Shown piece after piece: positions 1-63,175 of a DNA stretch of 64,000 nucleotides (the stretch's first letter is position 1; each line of letters starts with the position of its first letter). Under the pieces are notes generated by a model. It was not told where the DNA came from, searched no databases, and saw only the letters and a program-made list of their open reading frames with translations. The DNA lies in the NCBI GenBank assembly GCA_025201805.1, contig MU619329.1:21128-85127 (forward strand), written 5' to 3'. The position numbers and the translations under genes are program-made. This DNA is from Parasitella parasitica (lineage: Eukaryota > Mucoromycota > Mucoromycetes > Mucorales > Mucoraceae).

Positions 1-3000
1 CCAAGACCAGCAAGACCAATTGCAAGTGCTGAGACTTGGTCCCGGCACATTGTCTTGAAAGCATTGGGGCATTCGGGATTTAAGCAAAGAAACGAACAGC
101 CTGTTCGTTGTATTTTGCCATTGAGAGCAGCCACAGGATGAGAGAGCTTGTGGAAGCAGAAAACACACGTTTGTGTATAGCGGCCATGTCGCTGCTGTTT
201 CCAGAACCCATCAAATTGTCTGTGTCCCTTGATGCGAGAGCCGAATCCGTGTCCACGATCACCGACAAACATAATCGGCCTCTTTGCACAAGAACTCTTT
301 CTCTCGTAAGCTGCTAGTCTGTCAAAGTCTTTTCTGTAAGAGAGTTCCAGCCGTCTTCTTCTTTTTGTCATGGATTGGTTGTACTAGAATGAGCGCAACA
401 ATGCGCGCGCATTAGTGTGATGCGAATAGGCTTGCTCCAAACCATCAGCTGTTGAGCATTGATAAAGGCTATTTTTTCCAAGATCCATTTCCATCTCCAA
501 AACTGTATACCCGTCTTCTGTGATCTTCTTTTTTCGACTCAACGAATTTGTAAAACTAGCCAAGCCGGTATCTTGATTAATTTGCTTGGAGCCCAAAGTG
601 AGAGCGTGAGGTAGAGTCAAGTGTTTAAAAATATCAGCTTCATTTGTATTTGAACCATCAGCATTGTCTGCATCTTTGGTATCCTCTATAGGAGGCAAAC
701 ATATTTAGAATCAGTTCCTTTAACTATATACATATGTGTTCAAAGGCATTGAGTTACATACCCAAGATCTGAAACCTATTGTACAGCTTCAAGTGTGATG
801 CGAAACAATCGATATCAAAAAACACTGTCTCGGTAGTCTTTATAATGCCATTATCCGTGCCACTGAACACGGCTGTTGTCATATCCATGTCTTCATCCAG
901 CTTACATTCCTCTACCTTTCTACAGCATCCCTTGCTACCCACAGTAAAGGGCTTAAATGGTATTAGATTTTTCAAACCATCCACCAAAGGTTTTCCATAT
1001 TCATAAATCTTCCGCCGCAATGACGGAAGCATCTCCTTTGTATCTCGAATAGCTACCATTAATCTTCTCTTCCTTAACTTTACTGCTTCCACATTCTGAT
1101 AGCGCTCGTCTTTTTCTTCAACTTTAGCCTTCCAAGTCTTCGTAAGATCAGAAGTTTTGTCCCTTTCTTGGGCATCTACGACTTTCTCATAACATTGTTT
1201 TTGTTCTTCAAAGTTGGTTCTCCAAGCTTTCTTGAGACCACGGACACTGTCGTTGTCTTGAAGAAACTGATACAATTCGTTTGCGCGATCCCTGAGTGAC
1301 TTATCGAGCTCCTTCTTTTGAGCCTTCATAGCTCGTAACTGGTCGTCATCGGTATGATGGCTCAGCTTGCTTTTTGTTTCTGGGTTCCTGCGACTACACT
1401 TGAAATGTCCAATGCTGCCACACAATCTGACAGTCTTCGATCCTGGTAAGATGTGTATTCTATTTACGAACTCCATCCCATAGCTTGATGGCACGCTTTT
1501 CAGTTTGCCAATGTTAAAGAAACTGCTAAAGACGGCGTCTTTATGCTTTACGTAATTGCCTTAAAAGTCTCGAAGATACATCCGTTTTGAAAGTTTGCTC
1601 AAGCAGAAAAGTGCATACAGGGTCGTTGTGTCGATAAGAAGTGCATGCAAAGTAGTGGGTCTGACTATTGGAATAATTTAGCAACTTGGCCTTCATATTC
1701 GATTGAGCGCAGTAGTTGGTTCGCCATCAAGATGAACTTGAGTTGGCATGGAAGGAGATGATAAGTATCGCTTGATGCTATGTATGGCTGAACGAAGCTA
1801 GTAATTTTGATGATTGTTGCAGATTCTTGTGTAGTGATGTGTTCATCCTGATCTTGGAGGTATGCGTCTGTGATATCTTGCGTGGCAAACAATGCTGATC
1901 TTGCAATGTTGACTAACTGCCTGATTCTTTTTCTAGATACATTAGTATTGTTCCCTTTCTCGTAGTCCTCTCTATCATCAGTATCGCTTTCTTGGCGCTT
2001 TTCTTGCTGCTGCTGCTGCTGCTGATGTTTTGGATTTCTATCCCTTTCCGCTTGCTACATACATTCCGAGTTATGACACTATGTCTTCCTTTAAAAACCA
2101 GACGACTCCTACCTCTCTACAAAGTACTTGCTCATATGTACCGATTTTCATCTGGCACATGTCTGCTGCCTCATGCTTTTCTTTCTCTTCATACTTGGCT
2201 TTTCGCTTCTTTTCATCGGAAAACAGTTTTTGTCTTCCATTTCTTGTCTTGATCAGCACTGAAATTTCTGCCATTGGGATACTGCAATTTGTCGCTCTTT
2301 GTCTGCCTTTATAGTTTTTTCGAAGCTTGGCCGATTGTCTTTCAGTCTTCTTCGTCTTGATAGCGTGGACTTAATTGGGAGATAAATGTACAAACAACAA
2401 GAAGTTCAAGAGCTTTTTAAGTAGCTTGTTGACAATAGTATTCTCGGACCACATAATACGAAGATTCGTGTAATACTGTTGGCGAGCCATCTTCATAACG
2501 TGGAAGGACAGATTTTGATGTGGGTTGGCTTCATCACGGCCCAAAACGTTTACAATTGCCTTTTGGAGAGGCGACTTTTTAAATTTAGACTCTTCAATAC
2601 CCATTTGACCATAATATGTTGAGTGCATTTGTTCCAAATAGGGTTGTAGAAACAGCGATTGATAGTGAGCATTGAACTCGTCATTCTCGAGAGAGCTGGA
2701 ATTTAATGGCTTTGGTACAGTGATATCTTCCTCTAAATACCCTTCTGGCAGTATTGACGCAATGCTGTTTCCACCATCGTAGACAAGTTCAATTTTGCCA
2801 TCATTAGATTCAAATGTATACTTAGCAAACAACAGAGCGACTTTGAGAGCCTGCTTGCTAAAGTCAGACGATTAATTAGATACTTTCTCAATGGTAGCAC
2901 CGATTGTATTACTGAATAACGACATGATATGTCGTCTGGCAAGTCATCTCTGAGCACTTGACTTAAGAAATTGAGCATGCGCAAAATTTCTCAGCGTCAT

Positions 3001-3345
3001 CTTGAATCGCTCCGTCATTGTCTTCATCTTCGCTATCTTCACTCTCTTTATCATCATTGCTACCATCATCCTTTTCTGGTAAATCCAAAGAGATTGGAAG
3101 TTCTTCTCAACAAATTCTGTCCAGTATTCATGATTCTTCTTTCGAATTCCAGCCTTTTTATTCTGTGTATACACGGTGCTCAACATCGTTGTGATTTTTC
3201 CTGGATTTGCAGGAACCATACGAAAATAGCATATAAACGCTGATAAGCTTCGATAAAGAGCAGAATAAACACTGTCGCATACGCCATAAGAACAGGCATG
3301 ATCATCGCTATCTGAGCATAACTTGATTTCCACTGGGCAATGTCT
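1..3345 (-). pseudogene. Fanzor-like (eukaryotic TnpB-related) nuclease gene, decayed and partial
   Basis: Fanzors are transposon-encoded RNA-guided RuvC nucleases related to bacterial TnpB. Read on the minus strand, the window ends inside the RuvC/zinc-ribbon part. A SGTDNG motif near 843-860 fits the RuvC-I aspartate. At 1-150 there is a zinc ribbon (CVFC ... CLNPEC) followed by CRDQVSALAIGL, which fits the RuvC-III RD-x-x-A motif. A helical charged region (about 900-1380) precedes them. An intron at 686-761 (GT-AG, 76 nt, in phase) joins two ORFs. Disabling changes I can see are an in-frame TAG at 384-386, an in-frame TAA at 2371-2373, and single-base frame shifts near 1660 and 1545. Further upstream (2371-3345) the frame also breaks but keeps protein-like sequence, including an acidic stretch near 3010-3085. 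The 3' end lies off the window. The family call rests on motifs only. Confidence 0.62.
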
Positions 3346-4719: not shown

Positions 4720-7657
4720 ATGGGTAAAGCTAGAGAGAAGAAGAACTCCAAAGGTAAGAAACTGAAACTACAAAGGATATCGACTTTGGATTTAGAGAAT
4801 TGTTTGAAAGCTGATCAAGCCTATCTTTAATCACTATAGGACGTTTGGATAAATACTACCATTTGGCCAAAGAACAGGGTTACCGTGCTCGTTCTGCTTT
4901 CAAGCTTATTCAACTCAACAAAAAATACAATTTCTTGGAAAAGTCTCGAGCATTGATTGATTTGTGTGCTGCTCCTGGTGGTTGGTAAGTGTTACTTTTT
5001 ATTTATTTTGCACCGCATCCGATGTTGATCCAAAGAATTTTTGCAGGCTTCAAGTCGCAACAAAGTACATGCCTCAGTCCAGTCTAGTTATTGGTAAGCC
5101 CTGATCTTTGAAGCAAACTTTTTCTTAAAGCCTGTCATACTAATAAACATGAAGGTGTCGATTTGGTTTCAATCAAACCTATTCCCGGTGTAATTACTTT
5201 CCAAGATGATATTACAACTGAAAAATGTAGGCAAAATCTTCGACAAGAAATGAAAACATGGAAAGCCGATGTGTATGTAGTGACAACGATGTCATCTGTC
5301 CGGGTATTAATATCGCTCACATCGTATTATATAGTGTTCTACATGATGGTGCTCCCAATGTTGGTAGAGCTTGGGTTCATGATGCTTTCTCTCAATCAGA
5401 GCTTGTACTTGTGTCGTTGAAGCTTGCAACTGAATTTTTGACGAAAGGTGGTACCTTTGTTACCAAAGTTTTCAGATCCAAAGATTACAACAAATTACTT
5501 TGGGTTTTCCAACAACTTTTCCGTAAAGTAGAAGCTACAAAGCCTCCCTCATCTCGTAATGTTTCTGCCGAAATTTTCGTGGTATGCCGTGATTTCATTG
5601 CTCCTAAAAAAATTGATCCTCGTATCTTGGATCCCAAAGCTGTATTTTCTGATGTTGGCGCCGAGGAGCAAAAAAAAATGACAGACATTTTCAAACCTGA
5701 TAAGAAGAACAGACACAGAGATGGATATGAGGATGGTGATTATACTATGCACAAGACACTCGATGTGATGGAGTTTGTCCGCACAAATGATCCCATTACT
5801 GCTTTGGGTTCTTACAATCAATTTACTTGGAATTCTGACGAGTCAAGAGAGCTACTCAAACGCGATATTACTACTGAAGATGTCAAGTTGAATACTGAAG
5901 ATTTGAAGGTTCTCGGTAAAGGTGATTTTAAAGCTCTTTTAAAATGGAGAGCTACTCTCCGCGAAGAATACAAGATGGATAAGAAGGAAGAGCAAAAGGC
6001 CAAGGCTGCTTTGGTTGAAGAGGAACCTATGGATGAAGACGAATTACTCGAAGCTGAGCTTGCTAACTTGACTAAAGAAGAAGCCGCCAAGAAGAAGAGA
6101 GAGAGGAGAAAAGCTAACGAAAAAAAGATGAAGCTGATTCAACGTATGCAACTAAATATGATTATCCCTACCGACATTGCTTTAGAAGATGGAGGCGTGG
6201 CCGATGAGGAGGTTTTCAACATTAAAAAGATCAACAAGGACGATTCTCTTACGAAACTACATGCTGGTGACATGTCAATGGCTGACGAATTTGCTGATGA
6301 TGACAATACAAATGATATCAAGGTAGACAAGAACCTCCGTGGTCGTGTGAGAGAAATGGATATGGAGATGGACGAAAACTTGGACTCTGACGAGGATTAC
6401 GACCGGGATCTCGAGCAACAAATGGACGAAGCTTACAGTCGCTACAAACAAAGCAGAGCAGAGCGTAACGCCAAATTCAGAGCTAAGCAAGCTCGTGATG
6501 AAGACGATGAATGGAATGGCTTCGATGAAAAGAAGACAAAGAATGAAAATAGGAACAAAACTTTTGATTCTGATTCTGATTCTGAGTCCTCTAGCTCAGA
6601 GTCTTCCGATTCTGAATCTGACAGCGATGACGATGACGATGACAGCGAAGATGACAATGCTACGACCAAACTTGTAAAATCTGGAGTTCCCAAGGAAAAA
6701 AAGCTCAAGATCGCCACGAAATCATCCAACTCTCTCATGAACGATCTTGGTGAAAAAGCTGCACTGTCCAAAAAGACTGCCAATGGTCTCACAACTGCTG
6801 CTTCCATGTTTTTTGATCAAGATATTTTCCAAGATGTTGCTCTTGAGGAGCTTGTTGAAGACGGAGAGGAATCCAGCGACGACGACGAGTTCATTCGTGA
6901 GCAATCTCGCAAGAGAAAGAGAAGTCAAAAGGATGTCGATGGCATTAACGATGGAGAAGAACAGCAAGATGCTGATACAGACTTTGAAATCGAAGCTACT
7001 GAAGATGCTGTTCCTTCCGATGAAGAAATGTGGGATGGTGATGAAGATGAGAATTCTAAGGACATGAAGAAGGCTTTAGAGATTGGTCTGACTACTGCTG
7101 AAGCTATCACCATGGCTCGTCAATTGGCCAATAAAGAAAAGACTCTTGAAGATTTTATTGATGATGGTTTCTCCAAAGAAGCTTTTAGAGATAAGGATGG
7201 TCTTCCTGACTGGTTTCTGGATGATGAGAAACACCATAACAAGCCCAATTTGCCCGTCACTAAAGAAGCTATGAACCAGCTCCGTGAGAAGCTCAAAGCG
7301 CTCAATGCTCGTCCTATCAAGAAGATTGCGGAAGCCAAGGCTCGCAAGAAGTTCAAGGCCGTGCAAAAAATCGCCAAAGCCCAAAAGAAGGCTACTGATA
7401 TTGCGGATAACCCAGATATGTCCGAGAAAGAAAAAGCAAAGAACATTGGCAAACTGCTGGCAAGAGCAACCAAATCAAAGCCCAAGAAGGATGTCAAGAT
7501 TGTTGTTGCTAAGGGCGCTAATCGTGGTGTCAAAGGCCGCCCCAAGGGCGTCAAGGGCCGTTATAAAATGGTGGATGGTGTCATGAAGAATGAACGACGT
7601 GCAGAAAAAAGAAGAGAAAAGAAGGCAAAGAAGAGAAGCGGCAATGGTCGTCGTTAG
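4720..7657 (+). CDS. SPB1: AdoMet-dependent 27S pre-rRNA (guanosine-2'-O)-methyltransferase SPB1
   Basis: Nucleolar enzyme of 60S ribosome maturation that methylates the ribose of a guanosine in the large-subunit A loop. Exons 4720-4753, 4840-4984, 5047-5093, 5155-5272 and 5335-7657 all have GT-AG borders and sum to 889 codons (888 aa). The N-terminal FtsJ/RrmJ fold shows YRARSAFKL, the SAM loop DLCAAPGGW and VLHDGAPNV. It is followed by the long SPB1-specific region, with acidic low-complexity runs (about 6560-6660, DSDSDSES and DDDDDD type) and a basic C terminus rich in KKAKKR. The starting ATG is followed by a 34-base first exon encoding [11 protein letters not shown], a start typical of the family. 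First of four plus-strand genes. Confidence 0.95.
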
Positions 7658-42674: not shown

Positions 42675-44097
42675 TCAACTAATAGGGAATGGCTTTATAT
42701 TTAAATTACCATTCTTCTGTATGAGATCAATCACAAAGGAAAATACAGCTTGCATATTCTTCTCGTCGTTTTGTTTTATTGCCTGTTGGATTGCAGATTT
42801 AATCAACTCAATAACTGGGTTGAACTGGGGTGTGTCGCCTTGTAAGCTTTGAATTACTTTGAGGATGATGCCCAAGATATAAATAGCATCAGGCGCTGAT
42901 GCCGCAGGTGTTGATGTTTGTGTAGGCAAAGATAAAGAAGGAAACCTTGCAGATGTTGTGATTGTTACTGTAGATATTACTGACTGACTAGAAGTTACTG
43001 TTGCTGTAATTGTTTCTGGTCTTGTCATCTCGTTGGTGATTATAACGGTTTTTGTGATGGTATCTTTACCCGTATTATTGCTGCAGAGTTTACTGGAAAT
43101 AGAGCCAGGAACGGCAGTTTCAGTTTGGAAGAAATTATCCCAAAGACATCCCAATGTCTTTGTGATTGTCGCAGTTGTCGTTGACGTTGATGGGGTGGCG
43201 GTTACAGTTACATATTCTTTGCTAGGTATTGATGTTACAGTAACGTATTCTCTACTGGGAGTAGATGTTACAGTAACGTATTCTTTACTGGGAGTAGATG
43301 TTACAGTTACATATTCTTTACTGGGTGTAGATGTTACAGTTACATATTCTTTACTTGGCGTAGATGTCACAGTAATATATTCCTTGCGAGGTGTAGACAC
43401 AACAGTAACGTACTCTTTACTTGGTGTAGCTACGACAGTAATATATTCTAGATTTTTTTGAGTCGTTGTGGAATTATTGAATACAGTTGTAGTGTTGAAA
43501 ACAGTAGTTGTTTTCCTTTGTCCAAAAAAGTCGAATCCATCTGTTGTAATTGTCTTTGTGGATGTGGCAGTAGTCGTAGTAGTCGTAAGAGGAATTGTTT
43601 CAGTTTTAGTAGTCGTGATAGTATATATGCCGAATGGGCCCGGCGTTGGCATTACAGTTGTTGTATACACAGATGCTAAGGCGCTACATATTTCTGGCAT
43701 TACCACTTGTCAATGTAAACACAAATGGTTGAGGTGAGTATTATGTTTTGGCAAAAACACAATCGTTTGGGCATTTACATCTTACTGGGGTTTGTGCACT
43801 GGTCGCTGGAATTGTTGCATCACTCAATAGCAAAGATGGCGAGCTTGGGTTCCAGGGACCACCAGATAAGTTATCAGGGTTTAGGGATTGCAATACTTTT
43901 GCTGAAACGCTACTAAAAAATTGATCACCCGAGCTTGAAAACTAATGAATGAATTTAATATGAGATTAATCCATAAAAATTACTGTTCCAATTCATATTA
44001 CACTCTGAGTATAAACATTTCTCAATGGTACCCTAGCAGCAGCAAATACAGAGCATTTGATCTGTAATAGAAAATGCAATAAAAGTAGCATCTTCAT
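42675..44097 (-). CDS. Secreted Ser/Thr-rich (mucin-like) repeat protein
   Basis: The first exon (44002-44097) encodes a signal peptide (MKMLLLLHFLLQIKCSVFA), the second (from 43941) a Ser/Pro-rich segment, and the third (to 42675) the repeat region. Keeping frame into exon 3 needs the donor at 43799 (A then GTGCAC) and acceptor at 43706, giving 423 codons. The stronger-looking GTAAGA donor at 43785 breaks the frame, so this junction is unproven. Exon 3 carries nine 11-residue units of type EYVTVTSTPSK, flanked by Thr-rich sequence likely to be O-mannosylated. The C-terminal 80 residues are folded-looking (DAIYILGIILKVIQSLQG). No GPI signal is visible. Probably a cell-wall or extracellular protein; function unknown. 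Confidence 0.75.
43152..43448 (-). repeat. 33-base minisatellite, nine units, in coding frame
   Basis: Nine consecutive 33-base units encode EY(V/I)TV(T/V)(S/A)(T/I)P(S/R)(K/R/T). The outer units are the most diverged and several inner units encode identical peptides with few silent changes, the pattern left by unequal exchange or slippage. All units keep the frame. Confidence 0.92.
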
Positions 44098-61475: not shown

Positions 61476-63175
61476 ATGTTCGTTTTCAAAACAGCAGCAA
61501 ACAAGATTGCTCTTCCTGCTACTCGTGTAGCTTCTCGCAGATGTATTTCTTCCTCTGCTAGCAAATCTGGTAAGATGTTGATGTTCCATTCATGTAATGC
61601 AGCATAATTGACACTCTCTACTACTGAATAGCCCTCATGTCTACTCGCATGGCTCTTCAAGCCGGTAACAAGTTTGTAAGTGGTTTATGTACAGTATCAG
61701 GGTATTGGTGGCTGACATGAAGCGTGAAATAATAGACCTCCAACCTTCTTAAGGAAGCCTATGTCTCCTCTGCTCCTTCTCGTTTGATGTTCTTTGGTAA
61801 GTGGAAAAAAAAAAAAAAAAAAAAAAAAACCTTAATTGTCCTGTACGACAACTTTGTATTGACATGAAATATCAAAGGTCGTCGTGGTATGGCCACTGAA
61901 GCTGGCGGTAAGTTCAGTCGTGCCAAGCCTCATGTCAACATTGGTACCATTGGCCATGTTGATCACGGTAAGACTACATTGACTGCTGCCATTACCAAGA
62001 CTTTGGCCATTGATGGTGGTGCTCAATTCATGGATTACAACCAAATTGACAAGGCTCCTGAGGAAAAGGCTCGTGGTATCACTATTTCCACTGCCCATGT
62101 TGAATATGAAACTGGCAACCGTCATTATGCACACGTCGACTGTCCTGGTCACGCTGATTACATCAAGAATATGATTACTGGTGCTGCCCAGGTAATTATT
62201 CATAATACACGTTCGTTAAAATAAAAAAAAAATGAGGCTCTCTAACAGCTTGTCTGTCGATAGATGGATGGTGCTATCATTGTCGTCTCTGCCACTGATG
62301 GTCAAATGCCTCAAACCCGTGAGCATTTGCTGTTGGCCCGTCAAGTCGGCGTGCAGAACTTGGTCGTGTTCGTCAACAAGGTTGATCAAGTTGACGATCC
62401 TGAAATGCTCGAGCTTGTCGAAATGGAAATGCGTGATCTCTTGGCTGAGTACGGTTTCGATGGAGAGGCAACTCCCATCATCAAGGGCTCTGCTCTTGCT
62501 GCTCTCGAAGGTCGTGATCCCGAGATTGGTGAGAAGGCCATCCATGAGCTAATGGCTGCCGTCGATGCCCACATTCCTACCCCCACTCGTGACCTGGATA
62601 AACCCTTCTTAATGCCTATTGAAGATGTCTTTTCCATCTCTGGTCGTGGTACCGTTGCCACTGGTCGTGTCGAACGTGGTGTTGTCAACAAGGGCCAAGA
62701 AGTTGAGATTGTTGGAATGGGCCCCACCCTCAAGACTACTTTGACAGGTATTGAGATGTTCCGCAAGGAATTGGATCGTGGCGAAGCTGGTGATAACATG
62801 GGCGCTCTTTTGCGAGGCGTTAAGCGTGAACAAATCCGTCGTGGACAAGTTATGTGTGCCCCTGGCTCTGTCAAATCTCACAAAAAGTTTATGGGAACCT
62901 GCTACATCTTGACCAAAGAAGAAGGTGGTCGTCATACTCCTTTCGCCAACAACTATCGCCCTCAGATGTTTGTTCGTACTACTGATGTTACCGTCTCCCT
63001 CACATTCCCTGAAGGTACTGAAGATGCCGATGATAAGTTTGTCATGCCCGGTGATAATGTAGAGATGCAATGTGAGCTCGTCCACGATATTGCGCTTGAA
63101 GAAGGCCAACGTTTCACTATCCGTGAAGGCGGCAAGACTGTCGGTACTGGTGTTGTTACCAAGATTATCGAGTAA
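61476..63175 (+). CDS. TUFM: Mitochondrial translation elongation factor Tu
   Basis: GTPase that delivers aminoacyl-tRNA to mitochondrial ribosomes. Exons 61476-61569, 61632-61675, 61736-61796, 61878-62191 and 62264-63175 sum to 475 codons (474 aa). The first three exons encode a basic, Ser/Ala-rich presequence ([22 protein letters not shown]). The mature part starts near [19 protein letters not shown] (P-loop), followed by DCPGHADY (G3), NKVDQVDD (G4) and GSALAALEG (G5), then domains 2 and 3. Codon use is biased to C-ending codons, as expected for high expression. The 3' side has an A-rich tract at 63247-63262. Confidence 0.97.

Follow-up and report, generated by a model that had tools for sequence, protein, structure and literature searches.

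A 64,000-nucleotide stretch of contig MU619329.1 of Parasitella parasitica (here the window, C93:21128-85127) carries at its left edge, on the minus strand, the relic of a probable mobile-element gene. We assign a probability of about 0.9 to the reading that it is a dead copy of a Fanzor, a eukaryotic relative of TnpB and Cas12, from a divergent and oversized Fanzor1-like branch. A first-pass annotation had named a decayed Fanzor gene at 1..2275; homology, motifs and the predicted fold of relatives bear out that identity. These features, the lesions and the relationships among copies are observed; that the enzyme cut DNA under RNA guidance, and how the element moved, are inferred. The location given at that time was correct, but the extent was too small: in blastn comparisons with other copies, element homology runs on the minus strand from window position 3205 down to about -320, and the Fanzor-like remnant in all occupies C93:20807-24332. 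Leftward extension of the contig, which had been suggested, showed that the homology ends about 320 bases beyond the window. The coding part homologous to the Mucor protein P0020 lies between 3141 and -132 (tblastn). The parts of the relic are as follows.

1..3205 and approximately 320 bases further to the left, minus strand: Fanzor-like element remnant (blastn against copies L029, 97.5%, and L030, 91.6%)
2080..3141, minus strand: coding remnant of the REC-like lobe, P0020 residues 115-468 (tblastn)
Within 2080..3141, minus strand: in-frame stops at P0020 positions 184, 207 and 374 (tblastn)
1674..1943, minus strand: coding remnant of P0020 residues 484-573, in a different frame (tblastn)
763..1677, minus strand: coding remnant of P0020 residues 573-835, with another change of frame, a stop at 611 and RuvC-I at its end (tblastn)
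847..864, minus strand: RuvC-I S-G-T-D-N-G, putative first catalytic Asp codon 855-853
686..761, minus strand: GT..AG intron, 76 bases, phase 1, found in all five aligned copies
3..685, minus strand: last exon with RuvC-II, zinc ribbon and RuvC-III; in-frame stop 386-384; the gene runs on to about window -132
173..174, minus strand: junction of a 33-base deletion; a PTLITNEHNTS-type stretch is gone, including the Fanzor-type catalytic Glu (five-copy DNA alignment and protein alignment A1)
69..167, minus strand: four-cysteine zinc ribbon CVFC ... CLNPEC, with CVFC from 167 and CLNPEC from 86
39..44, minus strand: RuvC-III Arg-Asp of RDQVSALAIGL, with CRDQVSALAIGL from 47 and the Asp codon at 41-39

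Homology, motifs and predicted fold

The SGTDNG, CVFC, CLNPEC and CRDQVSALAIGL stretches were found on the minus strand where they had first been read, and the frame-joining intron was exactly 76 bases long in the five aligned copies. It has the form GTATGT..TAG (window 761-686), and splicing gives ..QIL-EDTKD.., the junction falling at the position of QIL-EDPMD in P0020. The relative P0025 carries an additional stretch between HFHIS and EDPM exactly at this conserved position in the alignment, which is probably an intron retained in the gene model. The C-x2-C motif noted at first makes up the front half of a ribbon with four cysteines, and the 11 codons immediately before it are deleted in the window copy.

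Among 27 candidates, 19 proteins (including the window's own gene model) matched the 127-aa C-terminal piece at E <= 1e-3, and the same piece hit 47 places in the genome that it comes from (30.7 Mb, 232 contigs), itself included, indicating that the C-terminal remnant is not due to chance. The RuvC-I piece found 33 own-genome stretches, itself included. Eight proteins were recovered with the read-through of the C226 copy as query, and 12, P0020 included, with P0020 residues 560-1114. Uninterrupted relatives were found in other moulds. The long relatives are P0020 (1,114 aa, representing 12 member sequences), P0021 (1,082 aa, 41), P0023 (1,050 aa, 1) and P0031 (1,268 aa, 22), of which P0020, P0023 and P0031 are Mucor proteins; the members from Rhizopus microsporus, P0032-P0034, have shorter gene models. 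P0023 (Mucor circinelloides) is nearly identical to P0021 (Rhizopus arrhizus) minus internal pieces, which may be attributed to contamination, misnaming or recent transfer, and the Rhizopus name may be wrong.

The family members in these sequence matches come from Mucorales, with a single C-terminal relative from Basidiobolus. The latter, P0016 of Basidiobolus ranarum, shares the signature TDEHNSSQTC..RDSVSAFAIGL, implying either an origin of the family before the Mucorales or its transfer. A tblastn search with P0020 found no viral relatives among 20 pattern matches, a weak negative in that the patterns came from poorly conserved stretches. Within the P. parasitica genome, L033 (C205) and L034 (C48) are more distant members with approximately 44-49% identity in the C-terminal part, so more than one subfamily coexists there. 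The only stretch above 90% identity between P0015 and L034 was 30 residues long (93%).

The published criteria used here are drawn from PMC3627910, PMC10711439 and PMC11423790. The motif set comprised 13 long relatives; P0024 and P0027, likewise recovered with the C226 query but with neither TDNG nor a whole ribbon, were excluded. The long Fanzor/TnpB motif of 2013, D-X(125,275)-[TS][TS]XX-C4 ribbon-X(5,50)-RD (PMC3627910), was present in 10 of the 13. Shuffled versions of the tested proteins gave no more than 2 matches in 2,000, and for none of these 10 did more than 1 of 2,000 shuffles carry the long motif. The misses were P0022 and P0026, gene models without all or part of the ribbon, and P0032, in which K-S replaces [TS][TS]. 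All 11 long relatives with a whole ribbon have the Asp of TDNG at the published spacing (157-239 residues). In the window copy, the 33-base deletion has removed the [TS][TS] part. In Fanzors, the catalytic Glu has a displaced position six residues ahead of the zinc ribbon (PMC10711439), and E-x6-CxxC was detected in 11 of the 13 long relatives and in 9 of the 14 rows of C-terminal alignment A1. The A1 rows without it are the window piece, its gene model P0001, P0010, P0013 and the C226 copy.

In structure comparisons, the RuvC fold together with the REC lobe was closest to solved Fanzors. This agrees with the RuvC fold proposed at the outset, and it was obtained on predicted models, of modest confidence, of the relatives P0020 and P0030, not of the broken window protein. 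The match rows of the P0020 model mostly cover residues 167-765, and the RuvC part was examined on a second model, on which the RuvC half alone nearly tied with Cas12j. The predicted REC lobe specifically matched Fanzor1 proteins, the Parasitella protein PpFz ranking first. By analogy with solved Fanzors, an intact protein would bind omega RNA, its N-terminal REC-like lobe would recognise matched DNA, and the RuvC site adjoining the zinc ribbon would cut it with the Asp of TDNG, the Glu of TNEY/TNEH and the Asp of RD.

Decay, copying and element ends

Compared with P0020, the window copy lacks approximately 114 N-terminal residues, falls into four frame blocks, one break being the intron, and has in-frame stops at P0020 positions 184, 207, 374, 611 and 928, as expected from the stops and frameshifts noted previously. 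The break at residues 468-484 recurs in the C181 and C29 copies and may represent a second, unrecognised intron instead of damage. Because its N-terminus is missing, its frame is broken and its Glu is deleted, the window copy can no longer function. All five copies closely examined (window, C181, C226, C50 and C29) are broken, with C226, C50 and C29 having stops and frame changes of their own. P0003, a protein named from P. parasitica, matches the C29 copy at 100% identity over its full 149 residues.

The 33-base deletion that removes the Glu was found in both the window and C181 copies in the five-copy alignment, and C181 also has the stops at 374, 611 and 928. These two copies are 98.0% identical, every other pair being 92.3-93.6% identical; 80 substitutions are common to them, and 18 and 16 are private. 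The simplest reading of these sequences is an old copy burst and, at a later time, a single further copying of a gene that was dead by then: an ancestor with the deletion and three stops would have given rise to both copies, and this copying, after the death of the gene, may have been performed in trans. The common lesions could instead result from ordinary segmental duplication, which would account for the high identity, the one shared deletion and the three shared stops. It would also agree with the lack of an identified target-site duplication and with the position of the window copy's 5' end, about 0.9 kb inside the element: C181 and C226 extend that much further in this direction. However, the homology between the window and C181 ends at the 3' point of an independent third copy (C29), as for an element end, and we consider segmental duplication the less probable explanation, albeit a substantial one.

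The 3' limit, near ATAC-n-GTTACAGTAT, is common to the window, C181 and C29 (three of five copies), with C181 reading GGATACAGTAT there. On the 5' side, homology between C181 and C226 starts at one point, a limit set by that pair of copies alone. Neither terminal inverted repeats nor target-site duplications were identified among the copies examined; inverted-repeat scans of L030 and L029 gave only short chance-like pairs, and a search of the 5' sides of C181, C226, C50 and C29 did not recover the complement of the 3' end, the C29 stretch beginning inside the element. Mucor Fanzor1 elements are described as having constant 3' regions, variable 5' regions and no recognisable terminal inverted repeats, and the MCi-2 element with its constant 3' and variable 5' regions may be compared with the copies here (PMC3627910), which we take as a lead only. 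Retroposition, prompted by the variable 5' ends, was rejected: the copies show no poly-A at the 3' side and retain an intron.

The 150 non-coding bases at the 3' side of three decayed copies folded no better than shuffled sequences (z +0.47, +0.42 and +1.22), and Rfam matches were absent from the decayed copies L009, L029 and L030. Because the copies are decayed, these results neither show nor exclude an omega RNA at the 3' end.

P0027 (P. parasitica, 751 aa) has a piggyBac-type transposase part at residues 57-223 joined to a C-terminal stretch of the Fanzor family. It may represent either nested insertions or a hint of the element type. A piggyBac origin was considered and not adopted, since nested insertions that the gene prediction fused into one model would explain P0027 just as well.

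Relation to known Fanzors

Direct profile searches had been proposed as a check by the first-pass annotation. The window's own pieces found no useful family, whereas the C-terminal ends of relatives weakly matched PF07282 (Cas12f1-like TNB; Pfam cut-off 26.3 bits) and guided_TnpB (NF040570), and these matches fell on the correct, zinc-ribbon/RuvC-III end of both models. The best relative, P0006, reached 14.8 bits with PF07282, and the window C-terminus did not match, probably because of its deletion. None of the relatives scanned exceeded the cut-off of a TnpB/Fanzor Pfam model, the sole Pfam match above cut-off in these scans being the piggyBac part of P0027; likewise, none of seven proteins scanned gave a TnpB/Fanzor match above cut-off in NCBIfam. 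TnpB and Cas12f, to which both models point weakly and below cut-off, differ from the family, whose glutamate is at the Fanzor position.

The P. parasitica genome is rich in ordinary Fanzors, with 36 PF07282 matches, 32 of them over cut-off, and when coordinates were compared by eye no such place overlapped a family match. Family pieces did not match the 18 ordinary loci L011-L028 at E 1e-3. A profile of seven of the 18 matched the family C-terminus at E 3.7e-5, with 88 columns aligned in the correct order; eight column-shuffled controls gave E 0.09 to 0.93. This result is somewhat favoured by choice because a motif pattern picked those seven. A sequence search of the PDB linked one ordinary Fanzor of this genome to GtFz1 (E 2e-4), whereas the divergent family gave no such match to GtFz1 or PpFz1.

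Among solved proteins, Parasitella parasitica PpFz1 (PDB 9cf0 and 9cf1) showed 8% identity in structure alignment, its chain having 722 residues in the PDB match compared with 1,050-1,268 aa for the long relatives. SpuFz1 and GtFz1 (PDB 8gkh, 9cey and 9cer) were 10-17% identical to the family models, but their Fanzor1 fold is alike, the catalytic triad is inside the matched range, and the Glu is directly before the zinc ribbon, as in the family.

RuvC-I reads TDNG in all 13 long relatives, unlike the DPG that is reported to be near-exclusive in Fanzors, a typical and not a defining feature (PMC10711439). This DNG, the 8-13% identity of the full-length model to PpFz, SpuFz and GtFz, and the length of 1,050-1,268 aa compared with 600-700 aa for most Fanzor1 proteins (PMC11423790) would all be expected of a separate, independently acquired TnpB lineage that is Fanzor1-like in structure and lies outside the described Fanzor1 clade. 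We regard such a lineage as unlikely, since the predicted REC lobe specifically matches Fanzor1 with PpFz first, suggesting a fast-diverging Fanzor1 branch. Mere resemblance of a non-Fanzor nuclease of RuvC/RNase H fold, whether Cas12-like or an RNase H-like transposase, is very improbable and already disfavoured.

The Fanzor1-like branch may overlap with families already named. Similar host fungi (Mucor, Rhizopus and Phycomyces) carry multi-copy, element-borne Fanzor1 genes (MCi, ROr and PBl), and 10 Fanzor1 families were credited to Mucor circinelloides in Table 1 of the 2013 study (PMC3627910); overlap with the MCi families is possible because P0020, P0023 and P0031 are Mucor proteins. In the Fanzor literature consulted, including that on Mucoromycota, Mucor and Parasitella but without supplementary family lists, no description of a DNG family of such size was met, and it may already be catalogued.

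Neighbouring sequences and implications

The relic adjoins a host gene for an Spb1 ribosomal RNA methyltransferase (window 5258-7657; Spb1_C E 9.9e-79), which points away from it. A gene of elongation factor Tu/EF-1A type with three GTP_EFTU domains lies at window 62264-63175, and a 33-base unit containing GTTACAGTAAC is present in 7.5 tandem copies at 43201-43449. Both this array and the 3' end of the Fanzor-like element contain GTTACAGTA, probably by chance.

We expect no function of its own for the dead window copy. Fanzors of Mucorales are already known, and the apparent novelty lies in this branch, which reaches approximately double the usual length, reads DNG at RuvC-I and is missed by sequence models. 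Tentatively, and at less than even odds, it may be an undescribed deep Fanzor lineage of about double size with DNG and added helical domains, with multi-copy members still active in Mucor and related fungi, and perhaps with an omega RNA located away from the 3' end. PpFz1 of P. parasitica has been structurally solved (PMC11423790), and thus one genome appears to contain both ordinary and divergent Fanzors. Because current domain models miss the family, counts of eukaryotic RNA-guided nucleases based on such models would be too low in Mucorales, and its altered RuvC-I and nearly twofold length would offer a test of which parts of the enzyme are essential.
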